A stretch of DNA of 64,000 bases, from the NCBI GenBank assembly GCA_021157965.1, contig JAGGVO010000041.1:256119-320118 (forward strand), given 5' to 3'. The position numbers were made by a program, and so were the translations under genes. Below the pieces are notes generated by a model. The model searched no databases, was not told where the DNA came from, and saw only the letters and a program-made list of their open reading frames with translations. This document shows, in pieces, positions 2,059 to 14,607 of the stretch. This DNA is from Candidatus Neomarinimicrobiota bacterium (lineage in GTDB: Bacteria; Fidelibacterota; Fidelibacteria; Fidelibacterales; Fidelibacteraceae). Numbering within the stretch: the first letter of the stretch is position 1; each line of letters begins with the position of its first letter.

Positions 2059-3876
2059 ATGGGACGTATACCGGAACATGTGATTGAACAGATTAAAGAA
2101 TCCAACGATATAGTGGATGTCGTATCCTCCTATATCTCCCTTACCCGGAAAGGACAGAATTACTGGGCCCGGTGTCCTTTTCACCAGGAAAAAACGGCGT
2201 CCTTCAGTGTGAGCCCATCCAAACAAATTTATCACTGCTTTGGCTGCGGAGCCGGAGGGAATGTGATTAATTTTGTCATGACTTATGAAAAGATCACATT
2301 TCCTGAAGCCCTCCATTCTCTGGCAGACCGGGCCGGCATCAGCCTTGAGGAATATACCTATCAACCCTCGGAAGAAGAAAAAAGTATCAGTTCACAACTT
2401 TATGAACTCCACCGCCTGGCCATCGATTTATACAGGAAAGCATTGAAATCTCCGGAGGGAAAAACCGCCCGGGAGTATTTGATCAAACGGGGACTGGATG
2501 ATGAGACTCTGAACACTTTTGAAATTGGGTATGCCCCCGAAGCCTGGGATACATTGCTGAAAGCGGCATTAATGAAAAAATTTGATGAAAAGCTGCTTAT
2601 TTCGTCGGGACTCGTTACCGAATCAGAGCGTAAGAAGAAATATGACCGCTTTCGAAACCGGATTATGTTTCCCGTTTTCGATATCCGGGGGAATCCCGTC
2701 GGATTCGGCGGACGGGTTCTGACCGGTGATGACCAGGGGGCAAAATATCTCAATTCCCCTGAAACGCCGGTCTATCATAAAAGCCGAATTTTGTACGGCC
2801 TTCATAAATCCCGGGATGCCATCCGGAAAACCGACAAAGTTTTGATTGTGGAAGGCTACATGGATTTGCTCCAGTTGTGGCAGAACGGTTTTACAAATAT
2901 CATTGCCGGATCAGGAACAGCTTTTACTCCTGATCACGCCAGGATTATCAAACGGTTCGCCTCCAAAGCGGTTTTATGCTACGACGGAGACGAGGCGGGA
3001 CAGAAAGCCGCCGTTAAAACAGGGCTTATTCTTGCACCTCAGGGAATATCCTGCCATGTTTTAAAATTGCCTGTCAGGGAGGACCCCGATAGCTTCATCC
3101 GTCAGGCGGGAGCCGAAGCCTTCCAGATGAAAATCAACGAAGCTCCGGATTTTATGTCCCACCTTGAATCCCTGATCAAACCGTTTAGCCTTTCGGCAGC
3201 CAGAAGGTCCGATGCTGTAAAACGAATTCTGGATCAGCTGGGATCCTTTACCGATCCGGTGACGGAAGAGATGTTTCTCAGTGACTTGGGACGGATTTTC
3301 GGGACGGATATGGCCGTGCTGAAACATCAGCTGAGTCGCACAGGTGCCAGGGACAAAGAGGATGCCATGTATGTTGGACCTGTAAAGAAAGAGAAACATT
3401 TTGCCAATAAATCTGAAGCGGCTCAATACCAGTTGATACAATTGCTGGTAAATACACCGGACCGTTCCATCCGGGCCGCTGCTCTCAGGGTGTTGAAGGA
3501 AGACCTTTTTACACATGATTTTCTCCGAAAGGTCTATAAACACATCCTGCCGGTTTTACGTAAACAGATGCAAATCAGCTCCTCTTCCCTGGCTGAAGCC
3601 GTGAAAGATGAAACGATTCAGCGCTTCATTTTCCGCCTGATTATGGAAGGAAACCCTTTCCGGGAACCTAAAAAAACTTTTCTGGATTGTCTTGCCCGGC
3701 TGGGTGAACAAAAAATCAGGGATCAGTTAACCCTGATCGGTGAAAAACTCCGGGAAGCGGATAAAAAAGGGGAATTCCCCGGTACCCTGCTGAAAGAAAA
3801 ACAAACCCTTCTGAAAAAACTGAAATCCCTTCAGGATACCCTGACGACGGATATCTTTCGGGAAGAAAACGAATAG
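2059..3876 (+). CDS. dnaG: DNA primase DnaG
   Basis: Synthesises RNA primers at the replication fork. The 605-residue protein has the CHC2 zinc-binding domain first (C39, H42, C60, C63), then the primase core and TOPRIM fold with VEGYMDLL and the acidic YDGDEAG motif at roughly residues 260-320, then a helical C-terminal region for helicase binding. Length is normal for the family. The ATG at 2059 is preceded by AGGA at a suitable distance. It sits directly behind mutS2 and converges on the cyclase gene with a 25-base gap. No rpoD follows, unlike the common dnaG-rpoD macromolecular-synthesis arrangement. Confidence 0.97.
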   Translation: MGRIPEHVIEQIKESNDIVDVVSSYISLTRKGQNYWARCPFHQEKTASFSVSPSKQIYHCFGCGAGGNVINFVMTYEKITFPEALHSLADRAGISLEEYTYQPSEEEKSISSQLYELHRLAIDLYRKALKSPEGKTAREYLIKRGLDDETLNTFEIGYAPEAWDTLLKAALMKKFDEKLLISSGLVTESERKKKYDRFRNRIMFPVFDIRGNPVGFGGRVLTGDDQGAKYLNSPETPVYHKSRILYGLHKSRDAIRKTDKVLIVEGYMDLLQLWQNGFTNIIAGSGTAFTPDHARIIKRFASKAVLCYDGDEAGQKAAVKTGLILAPQGISCHVLKLPVREDPDSFIRQAGAEAFQMKINEAPDFMSHLESLIKPFSLSAARRSDAVKRILDQLGSFTDPVTEEMFLSDLGRIFGTDMAVLKHQLSRTGARDKEDAMYVGPVKKEKHFANKSEAAQYQLIQLLVNTPDRSIRAAALRVLKEDLFTHDFLRKVYKHILPVLRKQMQISSSSLAEAVKDETIQRFIFRLIMEGNPFREPKKTFLDCLARLGEQKIRDQLTLIGEKLREADKKGEFPGTLLKEKQTLLKKLKSLQDTLTTDIFREENE

Positions 3877-3901: not shown

Positions 3902-6079
3902 TTATTTTGTCGTCATGATAAACTCACCCTGCCAGTCATCGGGCGGTGGGGAAAGTTTAAACTCCCGGCATCGTTGGATAAAGCGTTCTGAAGGCGGATC
4001 GCCGGGGACAAACTCCAGGGCTTTCCGGAAGGCGTTGATGGCTTTATCCCATTTCTGATCCCAGTAGTGATTTAATCCCTTTTCGTACCATTCTATGAGC
4101 TTCAGTTCCGCTTCCGTAGCTTCACCCTTTTTTGCCATCAGGTTGTATACCGTAATAGGTTTAGCTTTTCCTTTCACAATCAGGCGGTCAAGCACCCGGG
4201 CTTCTATGAAAGGTTTCGCCAGATTGTATGTGCTTTCTCCAATCATCAGATAAGTGCCGTATTGTTTGTTCGCTCCTTCAAATCGGGAAGCGGCGTTTAC
4301 GGCATCTCCCATCACGGTGTATTGGAAACGCTGTTCGGACCCCATGTTACCGGCACTGACCATTCCGGAATTGATTCCCATGCGGACATAGATTTCCACA
4401 CCATATTCCTTTTTCAGTTCGGGCCTCAGTTCGGCAATCTTTTTCTGTTGATCCAGGGCAGCCCAGCAGGCCTTCCGGGCATGTTCGTCATCTTCCACGG
4501 GCACACCGAAGTCACACATGATGGCGTCACCTTCGTACTTGTCCACGTAACCGTCGTAACTCATAAGGATTTGGGTCATAGGGGAAAGATATTTGTTCAA
4601 TAACTTGGCCAGGTCTTCCGGGTTCAGACTTTCGGAAATGGTGGTAAAATTTTGCACATCAGAGAAAAACATGGTGGCTTCCCGTTTTTCTCCTGTCAGG
4701 GTAAAAGCATCAGGATGATCTTCCAGATATTTCAGAATCTTAGGAGAAATATAGGTTGAAAACATCCCCCGGATTTTTTTCTTTTCACGTTGTTCAAGGA
4801 TGAATTCATACAAAATGTCAAAAGCATAGGACAGAAAAACAGCAAGAAGTGGAACGAAAAGTTCAATAATGATCCGATTTTCACTGAAAAGGTAAAAGGA
4901 CAGATAAGCATATCCCAGGATTAAGAGGGAAATGATGATAATCCCCCATACGGGCCCCAGGGTGATGGTGATGATAAGGGCCAAAACACTTAAAACCAAT
5001 ACAATGACATTATTTACCCATTTATCGGGTTTAATCAGGTAATTTCCGTCCAGGACCGTCTGCATGGCATGAGCATGGGTTTCCACACCGGCCATGAGAT
5101 TGGTCATCCCCTTATAATTGTAAAAAGGGGTGAATTTGGTATCAAAATGTTCTTCAAGGGCATCCCCGATGAGAACAATTTTACCTTTAAAGGGAGAATC
5201 TTCACCTGTGGGATTCAGAATGGAAAGGAGTTCTTTGGGATAAGCCGATTTGTCGCCTTTCCATAGTTCCATGTAATCCGTGTCATAGTCCCCTCTGAGA
5301 TCCGTTTCCGCATCATCCAGAACAGAAGAAAGGGAGTAGGAGCTGAATGTTTTGGGCGGTCCGTAGTAATTGATCATAAAGCTGTTTCCGTTGTTGTGTC
5401 GAATGCGCAAGGGACCGTATTCAATAAAATTCATGTCTTTTGAAAAAGCCATTTTCACGGAGTCGTGAATGCCCAGATACTCCTTTATTGCTTTCATGCC
5501 CAGAAAAAGGTAGTACTTATCCTTGAGGGGATAAAAAATGGAATAATTCCGTGTATACTGATCTATATCCTTCAATTCACCGATGAGCCCGGTTGTCAGG
5601 CAGGCATCGTAAAAAAGATCCACCGGTTCAGTGATGTGCTGGATGACATGTCCCCGGACAATTTCCTGATTCAGCTTACTGGGGAGGATTACATTGCCGG
5701 CATATTTAATGGCTTCAGCAAAAAGGGTGTCGCTGTGAAAATCATTAATGTCGTGGGTGTCAAACTGAAAATCAAAGACGATGAGCTTTGCACCGGCATC
5801 CTTGAGGTTCCGGACGACCTTGCCCCACATTTTTCGGGGATAGGGAAAACGGTAAGGGATGGATTCCCAGGACTCCTGATCCAGAGCAACCACCACGATG
5901 GGACTCCGCTTCCGGATGTCTTCCACAGGTCCCCGCCGTTTGAACCGGTAATCAATGGATTTCAGTTCGATGGTCTCAATCATACCGGCTTCACGGATTA
6001 AAATGCTCAACATCATGACCACCGTGCCGATGATCACACCGGCCAGAATGTTTTGCCAGGTGTTTTGCTTGATCTTCAT
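3902..6079 (-). CDS. CHASE2-domain adenylate/guanylate cyclase
   Basis: Membrane receptor cyclase making a cyclic nucleotide, probably cAMP. Order of parts in 725 residues: an N-terminal membrane segment, a large extracytoplasmic CHASE2 sensor (about 35-335), a cluster of membrane segments (about 350-435), then a class III cyclase domain (about 465-650) and a short helical, TPR-like tail. Catalytic features are intact: metal aspartates in FSDVQNF and in YEGDAIM, the purine lysine just before it (DKYEGD), and VNAASR for the transition state. The ATG at 6079 overlaps the previous gene's TGA by one base; a TTG one codon upstream is the alternative start. It is the last gene of a four-gene operon whose other products are exported, so the signal sensed is probably in the envelope. 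Adenylate rather than guanylate specificity is an inference. Confidence 0.93.
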   Translation of the reverse strand: MKIKQNTWQNILAGVIIGTVVMMLSILIREAGMIETIELKSIDYRFKRRGPVEDIRKRSPIVVVALDQESWESIPYRFPYPRKMWGKVVRNLKDAGAKLIVFDFQFDTHDINDFHSDTLFAEAIKYAGNVILPSKLNQEIVRGHVIQHITEPVDLFYDACLTTGLIGELKDIDQYTRNYSIFYPLKDKYYLFLGMKAIKEYLGIHDSVKMAFSKDMNFIEYGPLRIRHNNGNSFMINYYGPPKTFSSYSLSSVLDDAETDLRGDYDTDYMELWKGDKSAYPKELLSILNPTGEDSPFKGKIVLIGDALEEHFDTKFTPFYNYKGMTNLMAGVETHAHAMQTVLDGNYLIKPDKWVNNVIVLVLSVLALIITITLGPVWGIIIISLLILGYAYLSFYLFSENRIIIELFVPLLAVFLSYAFDILYEFILEQREKKKIRGMFSTYISPKILKYLEDHPDAFTLTGEKREATMFFSDVQNFTTISESLNPEDLAKLLNKYLSPMTQILMSYDGYVDKYEGDAIMCDFGVPVEDDEHARKACWAALDQQKKIAELRPELKKEYGVEIYVRMGINSGMVSAGNMGSEQRFQYTVMGDAVNAASRFEGANKQYGTYLMIGESTYNLAKPFIEARVLDRLIVKGKAKPITVYNLMAKKGEATEAELKLIEWYEKGLNHYWDQKWDKAINAFRKALEFVPGDPPSERFIQRCREFKLSPPPDDWQGEFIMTTK

Positions 6080-8589
6080 CAAAATTGGTACGTGTATTTC
6101 GTGTAAAACCGGGTAGTCATTCCAGTAGTCCCGGATTGATTCAGTTTATTAACGTGCAGGTTCAGAAACAAATCATTTCCGAAGATTTTTATTCGCAGTT
6201 CCGGTGAAAGCTGGTACTGGTCAAAGGCAACATCACCTGAAGCGTGAGTCCATTTGATTTCAAAGGTTCCGTACAGTTTGTTTTTCCACAGGGATTTTTC
6301 CATTTTTCCGGCGAATGTCTGATAGGTAAAATCGGAGGTACGGCTGATGTTATTATCCATCAGACTCCAGGACAGGGTTTGGGTCAGGGTGGATGACCAC
6401 TGTGTAAGGGCGGAAACGGACCAGAGGTTCAGGGAATAATCGGGACTGATATAATCCGGTGGCCTGTTGGGAATTTTATCCTTCCGGAGTGCGCGGATAT
6501 AATTGATGGTCAGATCAGAGTGGATGCCGCCGGTTTTCAGCGGTTGAGTCAGAGTAAACATCTGATACAGATTTTCATTTCGTATGCGCTGGTCGGTTGC
6601 AGCCGATGCGAAGAATTCACTGAGTGTATCAACGGCTGTATTCAGGTCGTTTTCCCTCAGATAGTATCTGAAAGACATGGACACGGTGGGAAGTTCCTGT
6701 CCCGGCATGACAGACATAGCTGATGATACTGAATTTGTGTTGGTGACATACTCTTTTTGTTGTCCCAAAAGGTTATCATACTGGCTGCTGTACCGCAGGG
6801 TCACAATCAGCCTGTTTCTGAAAAGCCGGATCCGGTCGCCGATTTCGGACAGGTGAATATCCGTCTGCAACCCCGGGTAGGCAAGGGACGAAAATTCAGG
6901 GGCGATATGCTTAAGTGTCCAAGTGATCAGGTTATTGTAATAATTGAGCCGCAGGGTTGTCCAGTAAGCCAGGGACGGGTAGTCCATGATTTTGTAGGGC
7001 TGAAGCCTGAAGTCCGCCAGGTCTTCACTGACTTCAGCCGGTATGGGAAGGGTTGTATTTTCATTGATGATAAAGAAACGGGACATTTTTTCAGGGCTTA
7101 TAAAATCCGGGAGTTTGTCCGAAAGGCTGATAATTTTATCACCAATGGTTATGGAATCATGCACACCTCCCCGGATGTTCCGGTTCGTCATGCTCAGGGC
7201 CAGATTGTGAGACCATACCAGACGCTGATTGTCCAGTTTCAGAGTGATGCTGTTGTCAAAAACCAGATTGTCCACCGGTGAATTTCCCTGGAAGACATAA
7301 GAATCGGTATCGGCATTATAATCTTTAATGTTCAGAGCCGGATCAAGACTGGCAGTATCGTCCCGGGCATGCATAAGGGTCATTTTCCAGTTCAGGAAGG
7401 ATCCGATACGGATTTCAGGCTGAATGACCTGAATATTCCGGGAATAGGTGAAGGAGGAGATGGTCCAGGTACGTGAACTACTGTCCAGTTCCGCCCGGTT
7501 CAGGACTTCGCGGAGCAATTCACCCCGGAGGTATGTAAGGTTCAGGAAATTCAGTTTAAGCCGGATCATGGCTCCGTTGACCCGGTTCCCGTAAAGAGTA
7601 AGCCGGGAGAGCTCCGGATAGAAGGTTCCTAATTCAAGATCTGTATAGGAAGTCCGCGCATAAGCATTAAAAGAATTTCTGGCTTGATACCGACGGGAAT
7701 CGTTTGAGACCCACAATCCTGAAATACCCAGTGTAATGCCCTGCACGGTTCCATTGATTCTGCCGGTGATACGGAAAAGATTGTTGGGTTCTCCATCCAC
7801 ATCTTCCCAGCGGAATTCGGTTCCGGCCTGACCACTCAGGGAACGGTCAATGCGCTGTATGGACTCTTCCGTACTGATCAGTGTAAATGTCCAGGTTTCA
7901 GGTCTGAAAAGTGTGCCATAATGATTCCGGGCATGAAGTGTTGCTGTGTACATCCCCGGCTTCAGAGTTTCAGGCGGCAGCGTGAGTGTGATAATATCCT
8001 GTGATTTTTCCAGATAGGATGAAAAATCAGTCCCGTTTAGCTCCAGTCGGATGCTTGATAAATCAATATCCGGCAGGTTGAAAAGGGAAACGGCTACAAC
8101 AAAATCGTTGCATTGAATCGTTCCGCCCGGTTCAGGTGCAAGAATAATATATTCCGCCGGGACGCCTTCTCCCTCCGGGCGTGTTGTGCTTTTCCGGATG
8201 GATGCTTCATCGCTCTTAGTGTCCCGGATGGTCAGGGGATAATCAAAAGGGCTGTCATCCGGTGTACTGATAACTCCGCCGTGTGACAGTTCGGCCATAA
8301 TAAAATATTCCATGTCGCCACCGGAGAGATCAGTTCCGGGTACGATTCCTGTCCATTCGCTTCCGTTATATTTCATGGGGTATTGACGATATGCCCGGTT
8401 TCCGGCCGGTCGGATATAAAGAACCATACGTTCAACAAGAGAGATGTTCCCTGAAAACAGACAATGTAAAACCAGGGTTTCACCAGGTATGTATTCTCTC
8501 GCCGGGACATGGACAAGTGTGCCGGTTTGAGCTGAAAGTATATAAGGGATCCACAACAGGAATAAGGTCCGGAGGAGGCGTTTCTTCAT
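6079..8589 (-). CDS. Exported protein, probable outer-membrane beta-barrel
   Basis: No family recognised. The 836-residue product starts with a clear signal peptide (MKKRLLRTLFLLWIPYILSA). Residues about 20-240 resemble Ig-like, beta-rich domains. From about 250 to the end runs a series of alternating polar/aromatic strands, ending in YTYQF with a terminal phenylalanine, typical of outer-membrane barrels. It lies between a FecR-like periplasmic protein and a CHASE2 cyclase and touches both neighbours: its start overlaps the fecR-like stop by one base and its stop overlaps the cyclase start by one base. Co-translation suggests it belongs to the same envelope-signalling unit, perhaps as the outer-membrane component. 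This role is inferred from context only. Confidence 0.75.
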   Translation of the reverse strand: MKKRLLRTLFLLWIPYILSAQTGTLVHVPAREYIPGETLVLHCLFSGNISLVERMVLYIRPAGNRAYRQYPMKYNGSEWTGIVPGTDLSGGDMEYFIMAELSHGGVISTPDDSPFDYPLTIRDTKSDEASIRKSTTRPEGEGVPAEYIILAPEPGGTIQCNDFVVAVSLFNLPDIDLSSIRLELNGTDFSSYLEKSQDIITLTLPPETLKPGMYTATLHARNHYGTLFRPETWTFTLISTEESIQRIDRSLSGQAGTEFRWEDVDGEPNNLFRITGRINGTVQGITLGISGLWVSNDSRRYQARNSFNAYARTSYTDLELGTFYPELSRLTLYGNRVNGAMIRLKLNFLNLTYLRGELLREVLNRAELDSSSRTWTISSFTYSRNIQVIQPEIRIGSFLNWKMTLMHARDDTASLDPALNIKDYNADTDSYVFQGNSPVDNLVFDNSITLKLDNQRLVWSHNLALSMTNRNIRGGVHDSITIGDKIISLSDKLPDFISPEKMSRFFIINENTTLPIPAEVSEDLADFRLQPYKIMDYPSLAYWTTLRLNYYNNLITWTLKHIAPEFSSLAYPGLQTDIHLSEIGDRIRLFRNRLIVTLRYSSQYDNLLGQQKEYVTNTNSVSSAMSVMPGQELPTVSMSFRYYLRENDLNTAVDTLSEFFASAATDQRIRNENLYQMFTLTQPLKTGGIHSDLTINYIRALRKDKIPNRPPDYISPDYSLNLWSVSALTQWSSTLTQTLSWSLMDNNISRTSDFTYQTFAGKMEKSLWKNKLYGTFEIKWTHASGDVAFDQYQLSPELRIKIFGNDLFLNLHVNKLNQSGTTGMTTRFYTKYTYQF

Positions 8590-9278
8590 TACCGATATTC
8601 TATGATTATGTTTTTCGTGTCTCCGCGTGGGGTTTGAAACTGAATTTTCAGTTGCTGAAGTTCTTTTTCGTCCACAACAATATCCCGGGGGATATCATTC
8701 GGGTCGGTAACCTGAACATTCACACTGCCGTTTAGAAGGGATAATCCCGTTTGATTGGGGCCAACAGAAACCGTGTAACCTGTGATCTGATTCATCAATT
8801 CCACAAGACCGCTCAGGCCGATAACTTTATCCCCAAGGCGGGGATCGGATAAAATCCAGAAATCGGTTCCTTTCACCGAGGCCACGGATGTGGGAGTGGA
8901 TATTTTAAATTCTCCCCCTCGCTGGTCTGAGATTTCCGCTTTCAATTCTCCGAAATTCATGGAAAGATCTTTGTTGAGTTGATTCCGAACCTTTTCTCCA
9001 CGGATTTCCAGATCGCAGTTTGCAAGAAGTTTCACCTGGCTTTTATCGTCAAGAAAAATCAGAGCCACAAAGGATTCTTTACCTGTTTTGATCACATCCC
9101 CGTTTTCCAGGATAGTCCCTGCCTTTGCCGTGTTTTTGAATGCTCTTTCGTTTTCATGGCGGAATGTTACCACTCCTCTTGTTTTTGCAACCATGGCAAG
9201 TTTTTGATTATCGGCATAGACGGGGATGATAATCACAAGGATCAGGATAATGGCAAGAAAGGATTGTATGTGTTTCAT
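8589..9278 (-). CDS. FecR-domain periplasmic protein
   Basis: A 229-residue secreted protein with a hydrophobic signal peptide ending near VYADNQ, followed by a FecR-type domain. Recognisable features are LENGDVIKTGKES, a run of beta-strands over charged or polar substrates, and FKISTPTSVASVKGTDFW. FecR domains in TonB systems relay ligand signals across the periplasm, but here there is no anti-sigma or sigma factor gene; the partner in the operon is a CHASE2 cyclase. The ATG at 9278 is chosen because GAGGT lies just upstream and the signal peptide begins there; a longer reading frame to 9362 would place charged residues before the signal and run into the upstream gene. Ten bases separate it from the upstream stop. 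Confidence 0.85.
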   Translation of the reverse strand: MKHIQSFLAIILILVIIIPVYADNQKLAMVAKTRGVVTFRHENERAFKNTAKAGTILENGDVIKTGKESFVALIFLDDKSQVKLLANCDLEIRGEKVRNQLNKDLSMNFGELKAEISDQRGGEFKISTPTSVASVKGTDFWILSDPRLGDKVIGLSGLVELMNQITGYTVSVGPNQTGLSLLNGSVNVQVTDPNDIPRDIVVDEKELQQLKIQFQTPRGDTKNIIIEYR

Positions 9279-9288
9279 GGTGACCTCG

Positions 9289-10497
9289 TTATTCAACAAA
9301 AACATTTTGAATGGTGTAAGATCCGTTCCGGATGCCGTTGACGATCGTCCGGAGCTCTTCAACAGTTATGGGTCGTCCGTTCACGGTAATCATACCTGAT
9401 ACCTGATAACCGTTTAGCTGACCTTCTTTCAAGGTTTCAAACTGGTTTTCACCTATCAGTTCCTTCAGCAATTCCTCTACCGGGTTGATCATCCGCCGGG
9501 CGGTTTCCGTCGAGGAGGGATCTTCAAGATAGAATCCGAAGATTTCGCTTTTCATGCTTTGAAGTCCACCGGATGTCTCAAAGGTTTTTTCTACCTGCCA
9601 TACGTAATATTTTCCAAATTCCAGATCTCTTCCGGCCAGTGCAGGATCGTAATTTAAAACGGTGATATTGTTTCCCACGTCATAAAAATCCCCGTTATCG
9701 GGAAAAGGCAGGACGGCCTCATCCATCATGGCATCGTAAGGACTCGCATGAATACCCGGGACATACTCACAGATGCGGATTGCATAGTTGCAGGATGCAC
9801 AGGCTTCGCTGTCCCACTGGAACATAGGAAACCTGTTGAACTGATTTTCAAAGTCCCCAAGACCGTGAACAAGAGTTCCCGGACCGACGAGTTCCAGAGA
9901 TGTGGGGGAAACAATCCGTATATTTTTGGAAACTTCCGATATCTGGCCGCTGCTTTCATTGATAATGCGGACCAGAAAGGAGTAGGTCCCCGCAGGGAGC
10001 TGTCCCGTAGATAAAATGGAGTTAGATAAACGGGACATGGCCGTTTTGTCCACATCTGCCCGGCCGCCGTTCAAATCCACATAGGGACTCCCGGTATTCA
10101 CCTGGGCCGGGCAATCGTAGGGAATGAAAAAATTGGAGATGTTGGATGAAATAATCTGGTTGGATATGCGACACGGACCGGCGATGGTAAATGGGTTCAA
10201 AACAATGGTGGCAATGGGTTGAAAACTGATCCATCCCAAAGCTCTGATCCTGGCTTTAAAATAAAATTCCAGGCTGATCCGGACCGGTTCGGGGAAAATA
10301 CAGGGATAATTCCTGTTTCCGATGTAGTATTCAAAAATCAAAGGATTCCCCTGGGGATTTTCCAGATTGAAATCAGAGAGGTAGAATATGACGATATCTT
10401 CATTAAAAAATTCTTCGGAAATTTCGATGGGAACCGCTCCAGGCAGTCCGGAAGTGGCCATAAAAAAGAACAGAAGACACAGAAGACCACGCTTCAT
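9289..10497 (-). CDS. Exported protein of unknown function, first gene of cyclase operon
   Basis: A 402-residue protein with a signal peptide (hydrophobic segment LLCLLFFFMATSGLPGA). The body is beta-rich, with Ig/fibronectin-like stretches (FLVRIINESSGQISEV, YYVWQVEK), and ends in a small helical-beta tail with VNGRPITVEELRTIV. I do not recognise a named family. GAGGA precedes the ATG at a normal spacing, and a promoter is seen about 90 bases upstream. It leads the operon of FecR-like protein, barrel-like protein and CHASE2 cyclase, so it may be a ligand-binding or scaffold component at the cell surface. That is inference from position only. Confidence 0.8.
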   Translation of the reverse strand: MKRGLLCLLFFFMATSGLPGAVPIEISEEFFNEDIVIFYLSDFNLENPQGNPLIFEYYIGNRNYPCIFPEPVRISLEFYFKARIRALGWISFQPIATIVLNPFTIAGPCRISNQIISSNISNFFIPYDCPAQVNTGSPYVDLNGGRADVDKTAMSRLSNSILSTGQLPAGTYSFLVRIINESSGQISEVSKNIRIVSPTSLELVGPGTLVHGLGDFENQFNRFPMFQWDSEACASCNYAIRICEYVPGIHASPYDAMMDEAVLPFPDNGDFYDVGNNITVLNYDPALAGRDLEFGKYYVWQVEKTFETSGGLQSMKSEIFGFYLEDPSSTETARRMINPVEELLKELIGENQFETLKEGQLNGYQVSGMITVNGRPITVEELRTIVNGIRNGSYTIQNVFVE

Positions 10498-10668: not shown

Positions 10669-10677
10669 TCGTTTAAG

Positions 10678-10749
10678 TATCCCGTAGGGGAGTCGAACCC
10701 CTGTTGCAGGAATGAAAGTCCTGAGTCCTGACCACTAGACGAACGGGAC
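10678..10749 (-). tRNA. tRNA-Glu (anticodon TTC)
   Basis: A 72-nt cloverleaf on the minus strand. The acceptor arms GTCCCGT and ACGGGAT pair over 7 bp, with a G-T at the first position; the discriminator is A. The anticodon stem CAGGA/TCCTG holds the loop CTTTCAT with anticodon TTC, and the T arm is GGGG-TTCGACT-CCCC. CCA is not encoded. A promoter lies 20 bases upstream and a terminator directly downstream, so it is a single-gene transcript. Confidence 0.96.
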
Positions 10750-10797: not shown

Positions 10798-10842
10798 GAA
10801 AAAAATCGGGAAGACCGGGTGTAAGGTGCTTTATACCATGTG

Positions 10843-10871
10843 TTGTATTTCAAGGGGAAACTCATTATCTT
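10843..10871 (+). promoter_or_regulatory. Candidate promoter of the acyl-CoA synthetase pair
   Basis: TTGTAT (10843-10848), 17 bases, TATCTT (10866-10871), located 28 bases before the first synthetase start. The -10 box is only a moderate match. Confidence 0.4.
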
Positions 10872-10880
10872 AAAACTAAT

Positions 10881-10894
10881 GAACAGGAGGGAAC
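10881..10894 (+). repeat. Ribosome-binding leader repeat, copy 1
   Basis: GAACAGGAGGGAAC occurs here and again at 12766-12779, each just before an acyl-CoA synthetase start. It contains the Shine-Dalgarno AGGAGG. The shared leader supports origin of the pair by tandem duplication that included the translation signal. Confidence 0.7.
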
Positions 10895-10899
10895 AGTTC

Positions 10900-12708
10900 A
10901 TGACCTATCAATTGGAATATATTGAAACACTTCCGGCGTTGTTTGCTGATTCTCAGAAACGTAATGCCGGTATGGTTGCCTTTTATACCAAGAAAAAAGG
11001 GGAGTGGCAGGGACTTACATATGCCGAACTTCGGGATGTCACTGAGAATGTTGCCATGGGGATGGATGTCCTGGGGCTGAAAAAAGGGGACCGGATCGCC
11101 ATTCAGTCCGAAAACCGGCCGGAGTGGGTCATTACTGATTTTGCCTGTGCTCATTTTGGCATTGTCAGCGCCACGATCTATCCGACCCTGATGGAAAAAC
11201 AGGTGGAATACATCCTGAAAGATTCAGGTGCCAGGGCCGTCTTTGCCTCTTCTGAAGAGGATGTAAAGAAAGTGCTGGCTGTCCGGAAAAATCTGCCTGA
11301 TTTGCAGTACATTATTGTCTTTGATTCCTTTAAAACCGACGATCCCATGATCATGTCTTTCCAGGAGCTGGCGGACAAAGGTAAAACGTATAAGACCGGA
11401 GTGAATTTTACCCTTGAAAGTCGGGGTGCCGAGCGGAAAAAGGATGATTTGTGGACGATTATTTACACCAGCGGCACCACGGGTAAGCCCAAGGGAGTCA
11501 TGTTGTCACATTTTAATATTTCCACCAATATCCAGGCATCCCAGGCAGCCTTGCATTTTAAAAACGGTTGCCGCTGGCTTTCATTTCTTCCCCTGAGTCA
11601 CAGCCTTGAACGGGTGGGGATTCACATGTCTTTCTGGGTGGGGTCAACCACCTATTTTGCCGAAGATATTCTGAAAGTCCCGGAAAATCTCAAAGAGGCT
11701 AAACCCCACTACCTGGTCAGTGTTCCCCGTTTATATGAAAAGATTTACGCCAAGGTGTTGGATGGTATCGGCCAGACTTCTCCGGTGAAACAAAAGATAT
11801 TTTTCTGGGCAAAAAATGTGGGGAGTGTTGCAGCAAGGGATTATATCCAGAAAGGAAAAGAACCGTCCGGTTTTATCGGTTTCAAATACCGCCTTGCCAA
11901 AAAACTGGTTTTATCCAAAGTAATGGATGCCTTTGGCGGCCATTTTATCTTCGGTATTTCAGGCGGAGCACCGTTACCGCGTGTCGTGGGTGAATTTTTT
12001 GCATCTGCAGGCATTGTGATACTGGAAGGTTTCGGTCTGACGGAAACCACGCCGGTAACCAATGTGAATCCCCGGGATAACATCAAATTCGGAAAGGTGG
12101 GACCCACCCTGCCGGATGTGGAAATGAAAATTGCCGATGACGGGGAAATACTCTTCCGGGGACCCAATATTATGCAGGGATACTGGAAAAATGAAGAGGC
12201 TACAAAAGAAGTCATCGATAAGGACGGCTGGTTTCATTCCGGTGATATCGGGACCATCGATGAAGAAGGCTTCCTTCAGATTACCGACCGTAAAAAGAAT
12301 ATCATTGTTACTTCAGGCGGCAAGAATATTGCACCTTTCCAGATTGAAAACGTGTTGAGCAAATCCCGGTACATCGATCAGATTGTGGTTATCGGGGACC
12401 GGCGTAATTTTCTGACGGCTGCCGTCGTGCCGGCCCGGGAAGCCGTGGAGCTTTGGGCAAAAGCCAGCGGGATTAATTATTCATCCTGGGATGAACTCCG
12501 GAACAAAGCGGAAGTATACCAACTGATTGATCATGATATCCAACACCTGCAGGAAGAATTTGCCCGGTATGAAAAGGTAAAAAAGTTCTTTATCCCACCT
12601 GAATCATTCACGATTGAAGGAGGAGAACTGACACCCAGTATGAAAATTAAACGTAAAGTTGTGGAAGAAAAATACAAGAAGGAAATCGATGCCCTGTATT
12701 CAGCCTGA
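10900..12708 (+). CDS. Long-chain acyl-CoA synthetase (AMP-forming), copy 1
   Basis: Activates fatty acids to acyl-CoA through an acyl-adenylate at the inner face of the membrane. The 602-residue protein carries the ANL-family signatures: IIYTSGTTGKPKGVMLSH (P-loop-like AMP motif), GFGLTETTP, GWFHSGDIG, the hinge ITDRKKNIIVTSGGKNIAP, and a C-terminal lysine region near SMKIKRKVV. The ATG at 10900 has AGGAGG nine bases upstream; an in-frame start at 10840 is less likely because it lacks this and adds no conserved sequence. A paralogue with the same ribosome-binding leader follows after 72 bases. Chain-length preference cannot be read from the sequence. Confidence 0.93.
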   Translation: MTYQLEYIETLPALFADSQKRNAGMVAFYTKKKGEWQGLTYAELRDVTENVAMGMDVLGLKKGDRIAIQSENRPEWVITDFACAHFGIVSATIYPTLMEKQVEYILKDSGARAVFASSEEDVKKVLAVRKNLPDLQYIIVFDSFKTDDPMIMSFQELADKGKTYKTGVNFTLESRGAERKKDDLWTIIYTSGTTGKPKGVMLSHFNISTNIQASQAALHFKNGCRWLSFLPLSHSLERVGIHMSFWVGSTTYFAEDILKVPENLKEAKPHYLVSVPRLYEKIYAKVLDGIGQTSPVKQKIFFWAKNVGSVAARDYIQKGKEPSGFIGFKYRLAKKLVLSKVMDAFGGHFIFGISGGAPLPRVVGEFFASAGIVILEGFGLTETTPVTNVNPRDNIKFGKVGPTLPDVEMKIADDGEILFRGPNIMQGYWKNEEATKEVIDKDGWFHSGDIGTIDEEGFLQITDRKKNIIVTSGGKNIAPFQIENVLSKSRYIDQIVVIGDRRNFLTAAVVPAREAVELWAKASGINYSSWDELRNKAEVYQLIDHDIQHLQEEFARYEKVKKFFIPPESFTIEGGELTPSMKIKRKVVEEKYKKEIDALYSA

Positions 12709-12765
12709 GCCTCTTGCGGGAACCTGAGAATCAGGCCGGGATCCATATCCTTCACACATATATCC

Positions 12766-12779
12766 GAACAGGAGGGAAC
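12766..12779 (+). repeat. Ribosome-binding leader repeat, copy 2
   Basis: Second exact copy of GAACAGGAGGGAAC, here one base before the ATG of the second acyl-CoA synthetase. AGGAGG is 5 bases closer to the start than in copy 1. Confidence 0.7.
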
Positions 12780-12780
12780 G

Positions 12781-14607
12781 ATGACAAACGAACGTAACAA
12801 GCTGAACGTTATCCCTGATTTTTTTAACGAATCCCTGGGCCGGAATCCGGACAGGAATGTATTCTATGAAAATAAGGGAGGGAAATGGGTCTCTATGACC
12901 TATCGGGAAGCAGCAGACCGGATTGAGCTGATAGCCTTTGGCCTCAGACGGCTGGGACTCACCAAGGGAAACCGTGTGGCCATTCAATCGGAAAACCGCT
13001 CTGAATGGACTCTTACCGATTATGCCTGTGCCCATTTTGGGTATGTCAGTGTGGCTGTTTATCCCACACTTCTGGCACCCCAGATCCGGTTTATTCTGCA
13101 GGATTCCGAAACCAGCACCGTGATTGTATCCACCCGGGAACAGGCAGAGAAAATTCTCTCGATAAAAAAATCCCTGCCTTCCCTGAAAACCATGGTTGTA
13201 ATGGACGATGAAGCCTTTGATGAAAAGTGGATCATTACTTTTCGTGAACTGCTTGACATGGGGCGGGAACAGAAAAAGGAATCCGGCACGACCCTGGTTG
13301 AGGAAGGGAAAAAAATTATGAAGGATGACCTGTGGACCCTGATTTATACATCGGGAACCACGGGAAACCCAAAAGGGGTCATGCTGACTCATTACAACCT
13401 GGTGTCGGATGTGATATCCACATTTGACATTGTGAAATTTGAGCGGGGATGCCGCTGGCTCTCCTTTCTGCCTTTGAGCCACAGCTTTGAGCGTACGGCG
13501 TCTCATCTTACCTTCTGGCTTGGATCGGAAATCTATATTGCCGAAGATATTCTGAAAGTTCCGGAATATCTGAAAGTTGCCCGTCCTCACTATCTGGTCA
13601 GCGTGCCGCGCCTGTATGAAAAAATCTTTGCGAAAATTACCAATCAGATTCATGACTCGTCTGCAACGAAACAGAAAATTTTCAATTGGGCCAGTCATGT
13701 CGGCCGGGAAGTTGCGGCAAAATATCTGGTGAAGGGGAAAAATCCCACCGGTGTACTGGGAATTCAATACGGGATTGCCAAAAAACTGGTCTTTAAAAAA
13801 ATTCAGGATGCCTTTGGAGGGGAACTTCGTTTCTGCGTTTCAGGCGGAGCCCCGCTGTCTAAAGAAATCGGTGAATTTTTTGCCGCAGCCGGTATTATCA
13901 TTCTGGAAGGATTCGGCTTGACCGAAACCTCTCCGGTTACCAATGTGAACCTTCCCCATGATATCCGCTTCGGTAAAGTGGGTCCCACCATTTCATGCTG
14001 TGAAATGCGCATTGCCGATGACGGGGAAATCCTTTTTAAAGGAAGTAATGTGATGAAAGGCTATTGGAATAATCCGAAAGCCACGGCGGAAGCCATTGAT
14101 GAAGAGGGTTGGTTTCATACCGGAGATATCGGGATGGTGGATGAGGATGGATTCCTGAAAATCACCGACCGGAAAAAGAATTTGATTGTCACCTCCGGTG
14201 GTAAAAATATTGCACCGGCCAACATCGAAAATCTGCTGGGTCAGTCTCCCTATATTGATCAGATTGTGGTTGTCGGGGACCGGCGGAATTATCTGGTAGC
14301 CGTCATTGTCCCTGCCAAAGATGTGATTGAAAAATGGGCACAGGAAAAGGGATTTGCCGAACCGTATGAAGAGATTCTGAAGAAAAAGGAACTGAAAAGT
14401 TTCATCGGGGAAGATATAGCCACCCGCCAGGCCGCCCTGGCCCGGTATGAGCAAATTAAAAAATTCCTGCTGATTCCTGACGCATTTACCATTTCGAGTG
14501 GTGGATTGACACCCAGCCTGAAGATTAAACGAAAAGTAGTGGAAGAACAGTATAAAAAAGAGATTGAAAGCCTTTACAAAGAGGACAATATGAACGGACT
14601 TATGTAG
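12781..14607 (+). CDS. Long-chain acyl-CoA synthetase (AMP-forming), copy 2
   Basis: Paralogue of the preceding synthetase, 608 residues. It shares blocks such as AIQSENR, DYACAHFG, GCRWLSFLPLSHS, FCVSGGAPLS and the AMP motif LIYTSGTTGNPKGVML. The hinge ITDRKKNLIVTSGGKNIAP and the tail SLKIKRKVVEEQYKKEI are also present. The N-terminal substrate-side region differs most, which could mean different chain-length or substrate preference. The ATG at 12781 follows a strong Shine-Dalgarno. A bidirectional terminator follows within 30 bases, so the two genes probably form one operon. Confidence 0.93.
   Translation: MTNERNKLNVIPDFFNESLGRNPDRNVFYENKGGKWVSMTYREAADRIELIAFGLRRLGLTKGNRVAIQSENRSEWTLTDYACAHFGYVSVAVYPTLLAPQIRFILQDSETSTVIVSTREQAEKILSIKKSLPSLKTMVVMDDEAFDEKWIITFRELLDMGREQKKESGTTLVEEGKKIMKDDLWTLIYTSGTTGNPKGVMLTHYNLVSDVISTFDIVKFERGCRWLSFLPLSHSFERTASHLTFWLGSEIYIAEDILKVPEYLKVARPHYLVSVPRLYEKIFAKITNQIHDSSATKQKIFNWASHVGREVAAKYLVKGKNPTGVLGIQYGIAKKLVFKKIQDAFGGELRFCVSGGAPLSKEIGEFFAAAGIIILEGFGLTETSPVTNVNLPHDIRFGKVGPTISCCEMRIADDGEILFKGSNVMKGYWNNPKATAEAIDEEGWFHTGDIGMVDEDGFLKITDRKKNLIVTSGGKNIAPANIENLLGQSPYIDQIVVVGDRRNYLVAVIVPAKDVIEKWAQEKGFAEPYEEILKKKELKSFIGEDIATRQAALARYEQIKKFLLIPDAFTISSGGLTPSLKIKRKVVEEQYKKEIESLYKEDNMNGLM

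Follow-up and report, generated by a model that had tools for sequence, protein, structure and literature searches.

The window considered here is a 64,000-nucleotide stretch of a Candidatus Neomarinimicrobiota (Fidelibacterota) genome (assembly GCA_021157965.1, contig JAGGVO010000041.1, positions 256,119 to 320,118), and our subject is a group of four genes on its minus strand. The genes lie between 10497 and 3902, tightly packed or overlapping, in the order A402, FecR, C836, CYC. An earlier, sequence-only reading proposed that they form an envelope operon in which a FecR-type step feeds a CHASE2 cyclase; all four of its open reading frames were confirmed on that strand, at the coordinates listed below. 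We have computed the gene content, the domains, a model of the barrel, the presence of the catalytic residues and the gene order across phyla, and we think it fairly probable that the four genes are a trans-envelope cyclic AMP (cAMP) signalling cassette, a variant of the scheme known from rhizobia. The features are as follows.

10497-9289, minus strand: gene 1, A402, a 402-residue exported protein of immunoglobulin/fibronectin type III (Ig/FnIII)-like character
9278-8589, minus strand: gene 2, FecR, 229 residues, a signal peptide followed by a periplasmic FecR domain
8589-6079, minus strand: gene 3, C836, a predicted outer-membrane beta-barrel protein of 836 residues
8517-7876, minus strand: C836 residues 25-238, two Ig-like periplasmic domains, from the strand pattern of the AlphaFold2 (AF2) model
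7845-6082, minus strand: C836 residues 249-836, about 26 long strands running to the last residue, a C-terminal phenylalanine, from the AF2 model
6079-3902, minus strand: gene 4, CYC, a 725-residue inner-membrane CHASE2 class III cyclase with a C-terminal tetratricopeptide repeat (TPR)
6019-4979, minus strand: CHASE2 extracytoplasmic sensor domain and adjoining transmembrane region of CYC (PF05226, E=2e-37)
4687-4145, minus strand: class III catalytic domain of CYC (Guanylate_cyc, PF00211, E=6e-26)
4090-4001, minus strand: C-terminal TPR-like repeat of CYC (TPR_2, E=7e-5, below the curated cut-off)
10613-10585, minus strand: possible promoter before gene 1, TTGATT-17-TATATT, a weak match (9/12 consensus positions)

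To judge from its sequence, the cyclase of gene 4 looks catalytically intact. Besides the CHASE2 and Guanylate_cyc matches it has all six catalytic residues, D474, K514, D518, T588, N595 and R599 (numbered from the ATG at 6079), which are the two metal-binding aspartates, the substrate lysine and threonine, and the transition-state asparagine and arginine, so that the description of this gene as a CHASE2 class III cyclase with an intact active site holds good. The same six residues are invariant in 28 orthologues (the alignment numbering being one higher). A lysine/threonine substrate pair is typical of class IIIb adenylyl cyclases and predicts ATP as the substrate, which indicates that gene 4 encodes an enzyme of that class; its closest solved relative is the adenylate cyclase CyaB of Pseudomonas aeruginosa (3r5g). 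By hydropathy there is one N-terminal transmembrane segment, with later hydrophobic stretches at 352-428.

C836 is predicted to be an outer-membrane barrel. The AF2 model, built on a 32-row alignment, has a mean predicted local distance difference test score (pLDDT) of 84.3 and consists of the Ig-like domains and then the barrel, with no plug. In a Foldseek search of the PDB nearly all matches were outer-membrane barrels, including BauA, the ushers FimD and PapC, MtrB, Occ porins and FecA, and MtrB had the highest query TM-score among the matches listed; because the matches are almost all barrels while their TM-scores are low, the class is clear and the family is not. The protein ends ...YTYQF, most orthologues also have an aromatic or hydrophobic C-terminus, and the first 20 residues resemble a signal peptide, though hydropathy gives no N-terminal segment above threshold. 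The barrel-like protein with an aromatic end that the sequence-only reading saw is thus also what the model gives, and its proviso that the protein might prove to be neither a barrel nor a surface component is not borne out by the model. By sequence profile against solved structures there was nothing beyond a match of the first Ig-like domain to the Ig domain of peptidylarginine deiminase (E=1.4e-4). C836 has no Pfam or NCBIfam family, the 32 members show no convincing Pfam match and none matches Plug, STN or TonB_dep_Rec, and no similarity to proteins on plasmids was seen.

The FecR protein matches PF04773 (E=2.3e-10), and its single hydrophobic segment is N-terminal and signal-like, followed directly by the FecR domain, in keeping with the periplasmic location predicted for it earlier. 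The domain and hydropathy scan found no anti-sigma domain or other N-terminal domain, and no solved structure was matched by sequence. Across 32 orthologues the motif TPTSVASVKGT and a C-terminal strand, G-x-x-K-x-I-I-I-E-Y, are conserved. A402, too, has a signal-like N-terminus by hydropathy, and its AF2 model (pLDDT 82.5) consists of Ig-like sandwich domains, as expected of the exported, beta-rich leader protein that had been described. The structures that it matches are Ig folds of a generic kind, and the TM-scores are low; it has no Pfam or NCBIfam family, and 30 orthologues gave no convincing Pfam match either. The same 30 orthologues conserve a C-terminal segment that ends -VE. A402 is present in 75 of the 98 near-complete genomes of the host phylum (Ca. 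Neomarinimicrobiota/Fidelibacterota), in 44 of its 51 genera. In Melioribacteraceae an exported protein of 349-378 residues occupies the A402 position, and the A402 profile does not reach it.

How faithfully do the four genes travel together? C836 was found in 38 of 61 relatives (24 of 31 genera), and the full A402-FecR-C836-CYC order is present in loci of 31 relatives, with C836 identity down to 20-30%. Named genomes were then scanned with the cyclase alignment, which gave 80 loci, and the neighbours were tested with profiles built from the relatives. The gene immediately upstream of the cyclase is C836 in most families of the host phylum, in Calditrichota (L074, L075, L080, L100), Ignavibacteriota (L079, L093, L096, L097, L118, L128) and Balneolota (L091), and in metagenome-assembled genomes (MAGs) labelled Bacteroidetes (L084, L105, L122, L131). 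About 20 named loci outside the closest relatives, in other families and phyla, share all four genes in the same order, and the intergenic gaps in cassettes are mostly below 100 bp or replaced by overlaps. Recurrence in the same order in dozens of genomes rules out chance or an annotation artefact, and the sequence-only reading's concern that the genes might not stay together in related genomes is answered by an order kept across phyla.

The cyclases themselves show the same association. In a FastTree tree of 107 cyclases (midpoint rooting, no bootstrap), all 53 with C836 upstream fall within one 99%-supported clade of 57; two of the four other members lie at contig ends (L076, L112), and two are genuine exceptions (L086, L113). 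One clade for the C836-linked cyclases is consistent with the cassette having arisen once in the Fibrobacteres-Chlorobi-Bacteroidetes (FCB) group, with some later losses. A sister genus, g2 (G006, G008, G010, G012-G018), has neither C836 nor any CHASE2 protein, and G002, from the same genus as the window, is without C836; the cassette is therefore dispensable.

What might such a cassette do? In Sinorhizobium meliloti, NsrA is an outer-membrane barrel that genetic evidence shows to be needed for an outside signal to raise cAMP via the CHASE2 cyclases CyaK, CyaD1 and CyaD2 (PMC7529298, PMC13001267). By analogy, C836 would be the outer-membrane barrel, its Ig-like domains in the periplasm, and exported A402 and periplasmic FecR would associate with it. 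When C836 or A402 met a ligand or changed state, FecR would pass this on to CHASE2 in the periplasm; on the cytoplasmic side the class III domains would produce cAMP, which a Crp-type regulator with its gene elsewhere in the genome would read. Two such regulators (each with a cyclic nucleotide-binding domain and a helix-turn-helix) are encoded in the host genome, away from the cassette. We infer the localisation, the physical contacts, the direction of the signal, the cAMP product and the choice of regulator from gene content and domain architecture. The interpretation put forward in the sequence-only reading is, overall, partly supported.

Several observations weigh against a signalling cassette of this kind. 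The host genome (G000) carries a paralogous envelope trio with no cyclase (G000:C15:26000-43000, locus L066), made up of a 1554-residue exported protein that has Ig_Rha78A_N domains and a region like A402, a 387-residue FecR protein and an 885-residue C836-like barrel; this trio recurs in G004 (L065), and a similar one is found in G025 (L046). G060 likewise has an A402-FecR-C836 cluster without a cyclase. Conversely, the host genome encodes a second, lone CHASE2 class III cyclase without the trio (L072, L001; G000:C31:5853-8009), of 718 residues, beside a gene for a sugar-type ABC ATPase and with neither FecR nor barrel; it lies far from the cassette cyclases in the tree, and most relatives carry an extra CHASE2 protein similar to it. 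At CHASE2 loci outside the cassette, FecR was near on the same strand in only 8 of 54, and the profile found none in the other 46 (46/54); one of the eight, L119, has a 1059-residue FecR protein ending in F. The NsrA-like barrel of S. meliloti shows no profile similarity to C836 by hhalign, which gave a probability of 0.3% (against a single sequence). The occurrence of the trio without a cyclase cuts both ways: it supports the view that the three envelope proteins form one module, and it means that the module may have a job of its own, which is our main caution on the step from FecR to cyclase.

That caution leads to the rival account that survives best, in which the envelope trio would serve surface assembly or secretion: the barrel would export A402 or some other substrate, or display it, FecR would be a periplasmic scaffold, and the cyclase a monitor or a merely co-regulated gene. 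The cyclase-less trios of the host genome and G060 are what this account would expect, the ushers FimD and PapC are among the top structural matches of C836, and for three A402 members there is a weak match to the TcfC E-set domain (E=0.001). On the other hand, no chaperone, pilin or protease partner occurs among the recurrent neighbours, C836 has no Pfam usher match, and it is the order of trio plus cyclase that is conserved across phyla. We consider this account unlikely.

A second rival arises from the neighbourhood. Of 51 cassettes measured, 27, all of them in the host phylum, have a gene for a protein with a receiver and a PglZ domain downstream of the cyclase, in the same orientation and no more than 1 kb away, and no such adjacency was seen outside that phylum among the measured cassettes. 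Receiver plus PglZ is the architecture of PorX, a regulator of type IX secretion, and the PorX proteins of Flavobacterium and Porphyromonas have phosphodiesterase activity (PMC10951265). Might the cassette then be a sensor arm of type IX secretion, the trio reporting the state of the outer membrane or of secretion, and cAMP acting with the neighbouring PorX? The host genome does encode a 2041-residue SprA-like type IX translocon (G000:C41:114627-120410) and about 52 type IX sorting tails over the cut-off. Its porX, however, is on another contig, unlinked to the cassette, and domain searches with the cassette proteins linked none of them to a known family of type IX components. We know of no action of PorX on cAMP. 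Moreover, tsaE-, tsaB- and accD-like genes (identified by eye) come after porX, so that this may be merely an ancestral location; the adjacency may be functional, or it may reflect only such a location. A type IX sensor arm seems to us improbable. The remaining rival, that the four are operon mates without functional interaction, kept together for shared expression, is very improbable: conserved order by itself is indeed no proof of contact, but the persistence of C836 at about 25-30% identity across several phyla and the confinement of C836-linked cyclases to one clade are both hard to account for by shared expression alone.

The signalling cassette that we favour could be extended into a bolder scheme, an ancient receptor class of the FCB group in which a plug-less outer-membrane barrel of about 26 strands, carrying Ig-like domains, and its exported Ig-like partner would act on the CHASE2 cyclase directly through a freed FecR domain, with the cAMP signal integrated with the adjacent PorX. 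We offer this as a doubtful speculation.

Some details of the locus bear on its expression. The start of the FecR gene is most likely the ATG at 9278, which has AACGAGG 5-11 nt upstream; the start of the longest open reading frame would be a TTG at 9362, inside gene 1. Genes 2 and 3 (TAATG) and genes 3 and 4 (TGATG, giving the cyclase ATG at 6079) overlap by 1 nt, which suggests translational coupling. The sequence-only reading had a single promoter before gene 1, and its position is plausible: a strong terminator-like hairpin at 10668-10643 follows tRNA-Glu (10677-10749, minus strand) just upstream of the promoter-like site, making an independent transcription start before 10497 plausible. 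The match itself is weak, however, and promoter-like sites in the region number 13, where shuffled sequence gives 10.6 +/- 3.2, which is not above chance, so that the promoter claim is one of position. On the other side the cassette is flanked by a dnaG-like gene (2059-3876, plus strand). Two similar tandem genes for long-chain acyl-CoA synthetase-like proteins (622 and 608 residues) adjoin the cassette at 10840-14607. In Melioribacteraceae (L093, L096, L097, L118) two genes precede the cassette, one for an adenosine-deaminase-like protein and one for a TPR protein whose N-terminus resembles that of a lipoprotein. In L079, L084, L105, L128 and L131, from Ignavibacteriota and Bacteroidetes-labelled MAGs, dxr-like and rseP-like genes stand upstream of it; proteases of the RseP type are known elsewhere to act on anti-sigma factors, and the proximity of an rseP-like gene is probably a coincidence. 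The host genome also has, at G000:C34:24177 (L160), a third FecR protein of at least 650 residues, in which a FecR domain, a stretch of DxDxDG-type repeats and a second half resembling a barrel are joined in a single chain.

Why should this matter? CHASE2 receptors are widespread and the cues they sense are largely unknown, and the conserved four-gene unit supplies a defined set of partners: two proteins from unnamed families, one an outer-membrane barrel and the other exported and Ig-like, together with a FecR domain employed with no sigma factor. Should the connection to the cyclase prove real, the rhizobial NsrA example would extend to a large and mostly uncultured group, and FecR domains would serve generally as outer-to-inner relays. 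The repeated presence of porX nearby also raises the matter of a connection between cAMP and type IX secretion.

In the classical FecA-FecR-FecI system the receptor, FecA, is TonB-dependent, and FecR serves as an anti-sigma factor in the inner membrane. The cassette shares with it a barrel, a FecR domain and a signal that would run inward, but its FecR is not an anti-sigma factor and its barrel is not a TonB-dependent receptor. No sigma factor occurs in the window cluster or, judged from the sequences shown, among the recurrent cassette neighbours; with no anti-sigma domain, no sigma factor and no TonB plug, a FecIRA/TonB system is ruled out, and the earlier reading was right to leave out the sigma-factor route. 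It went too far in calling the combination undescribed, as FecR proteins encoded with CHASE2 cyclases are known from S. meliloti, there with a barrel in the same protein, and from Campylobacterota.

The closest parallel is that of S. meliloti, where a gene on pSymB overlaps the next one, which encodes a 649-residue CHASE2 cyclase. The product of the first gene, of 1219 residues, has a FecR domain (85-179), TPRs and a barrel-like C-terminal half with KVRF at its end. From its size, layout and position this protein is probably NsrA, the barrel of which is placed at residues 600-1200 (PMC7529298, PMC13001267). There as here, a FecR domain and a predicted barrel are encoded directly before a CHASE2 cyclase, but FecR, TPR and barrel are joined in one protein, there is no A402, and the barrel is not similar to C836 by profile. 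In Campylobacterota, a CHASE2 cyclase, a phosphodiesterase, a FecR protein and a TPR protein are clustered and have been proposed to form one pathway (PMC9239204); FecR protein and CHASE2 adenylate cyclase again stand together, whereas the TPR protein and the phosphodiesterase have separate genes and no A402-type or C836-type protein is described there. The window cluster has no phosphodiesterase gene, the PglZ-type PorX being what stands beside 27/51 of the cassettes. An operon of Paracoccus aminophilus pAMI5 runs TPR-FecR-cyclase, and so has a FecR gene directly before a CHASE2 cyclase, but the TPR protein comes first, the FecR protein has 655 residues and there is no separate barrel. In magnetotactic bacteria the gene for MtxA precedes a CHASE2 cyclase gene (PMC4439547), so that a protein with a beta-rich Ig/Fn3-like domain is again encoded beside the cyclase; MtxA combines TPR and Ig-like domain, and the parts of that report available to us describe no barrel partner. 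The Burkholderia BiofilmReg system pairs a FecR-domain periplasmic protein with a CHASE2 receptor next to it (PMC5192318), but its output is a histidine kinase and a response regulator, FecR is joined to LysM, and there is no barrel. We found no description of the four-gene cassette in these phyla in the open-licence literature, and its FCB form, with two unnamed protein families, appears to be undescribed in the literature searched. Relative to all of these known systems, the frequent adjacency of the cassette to porX is new.

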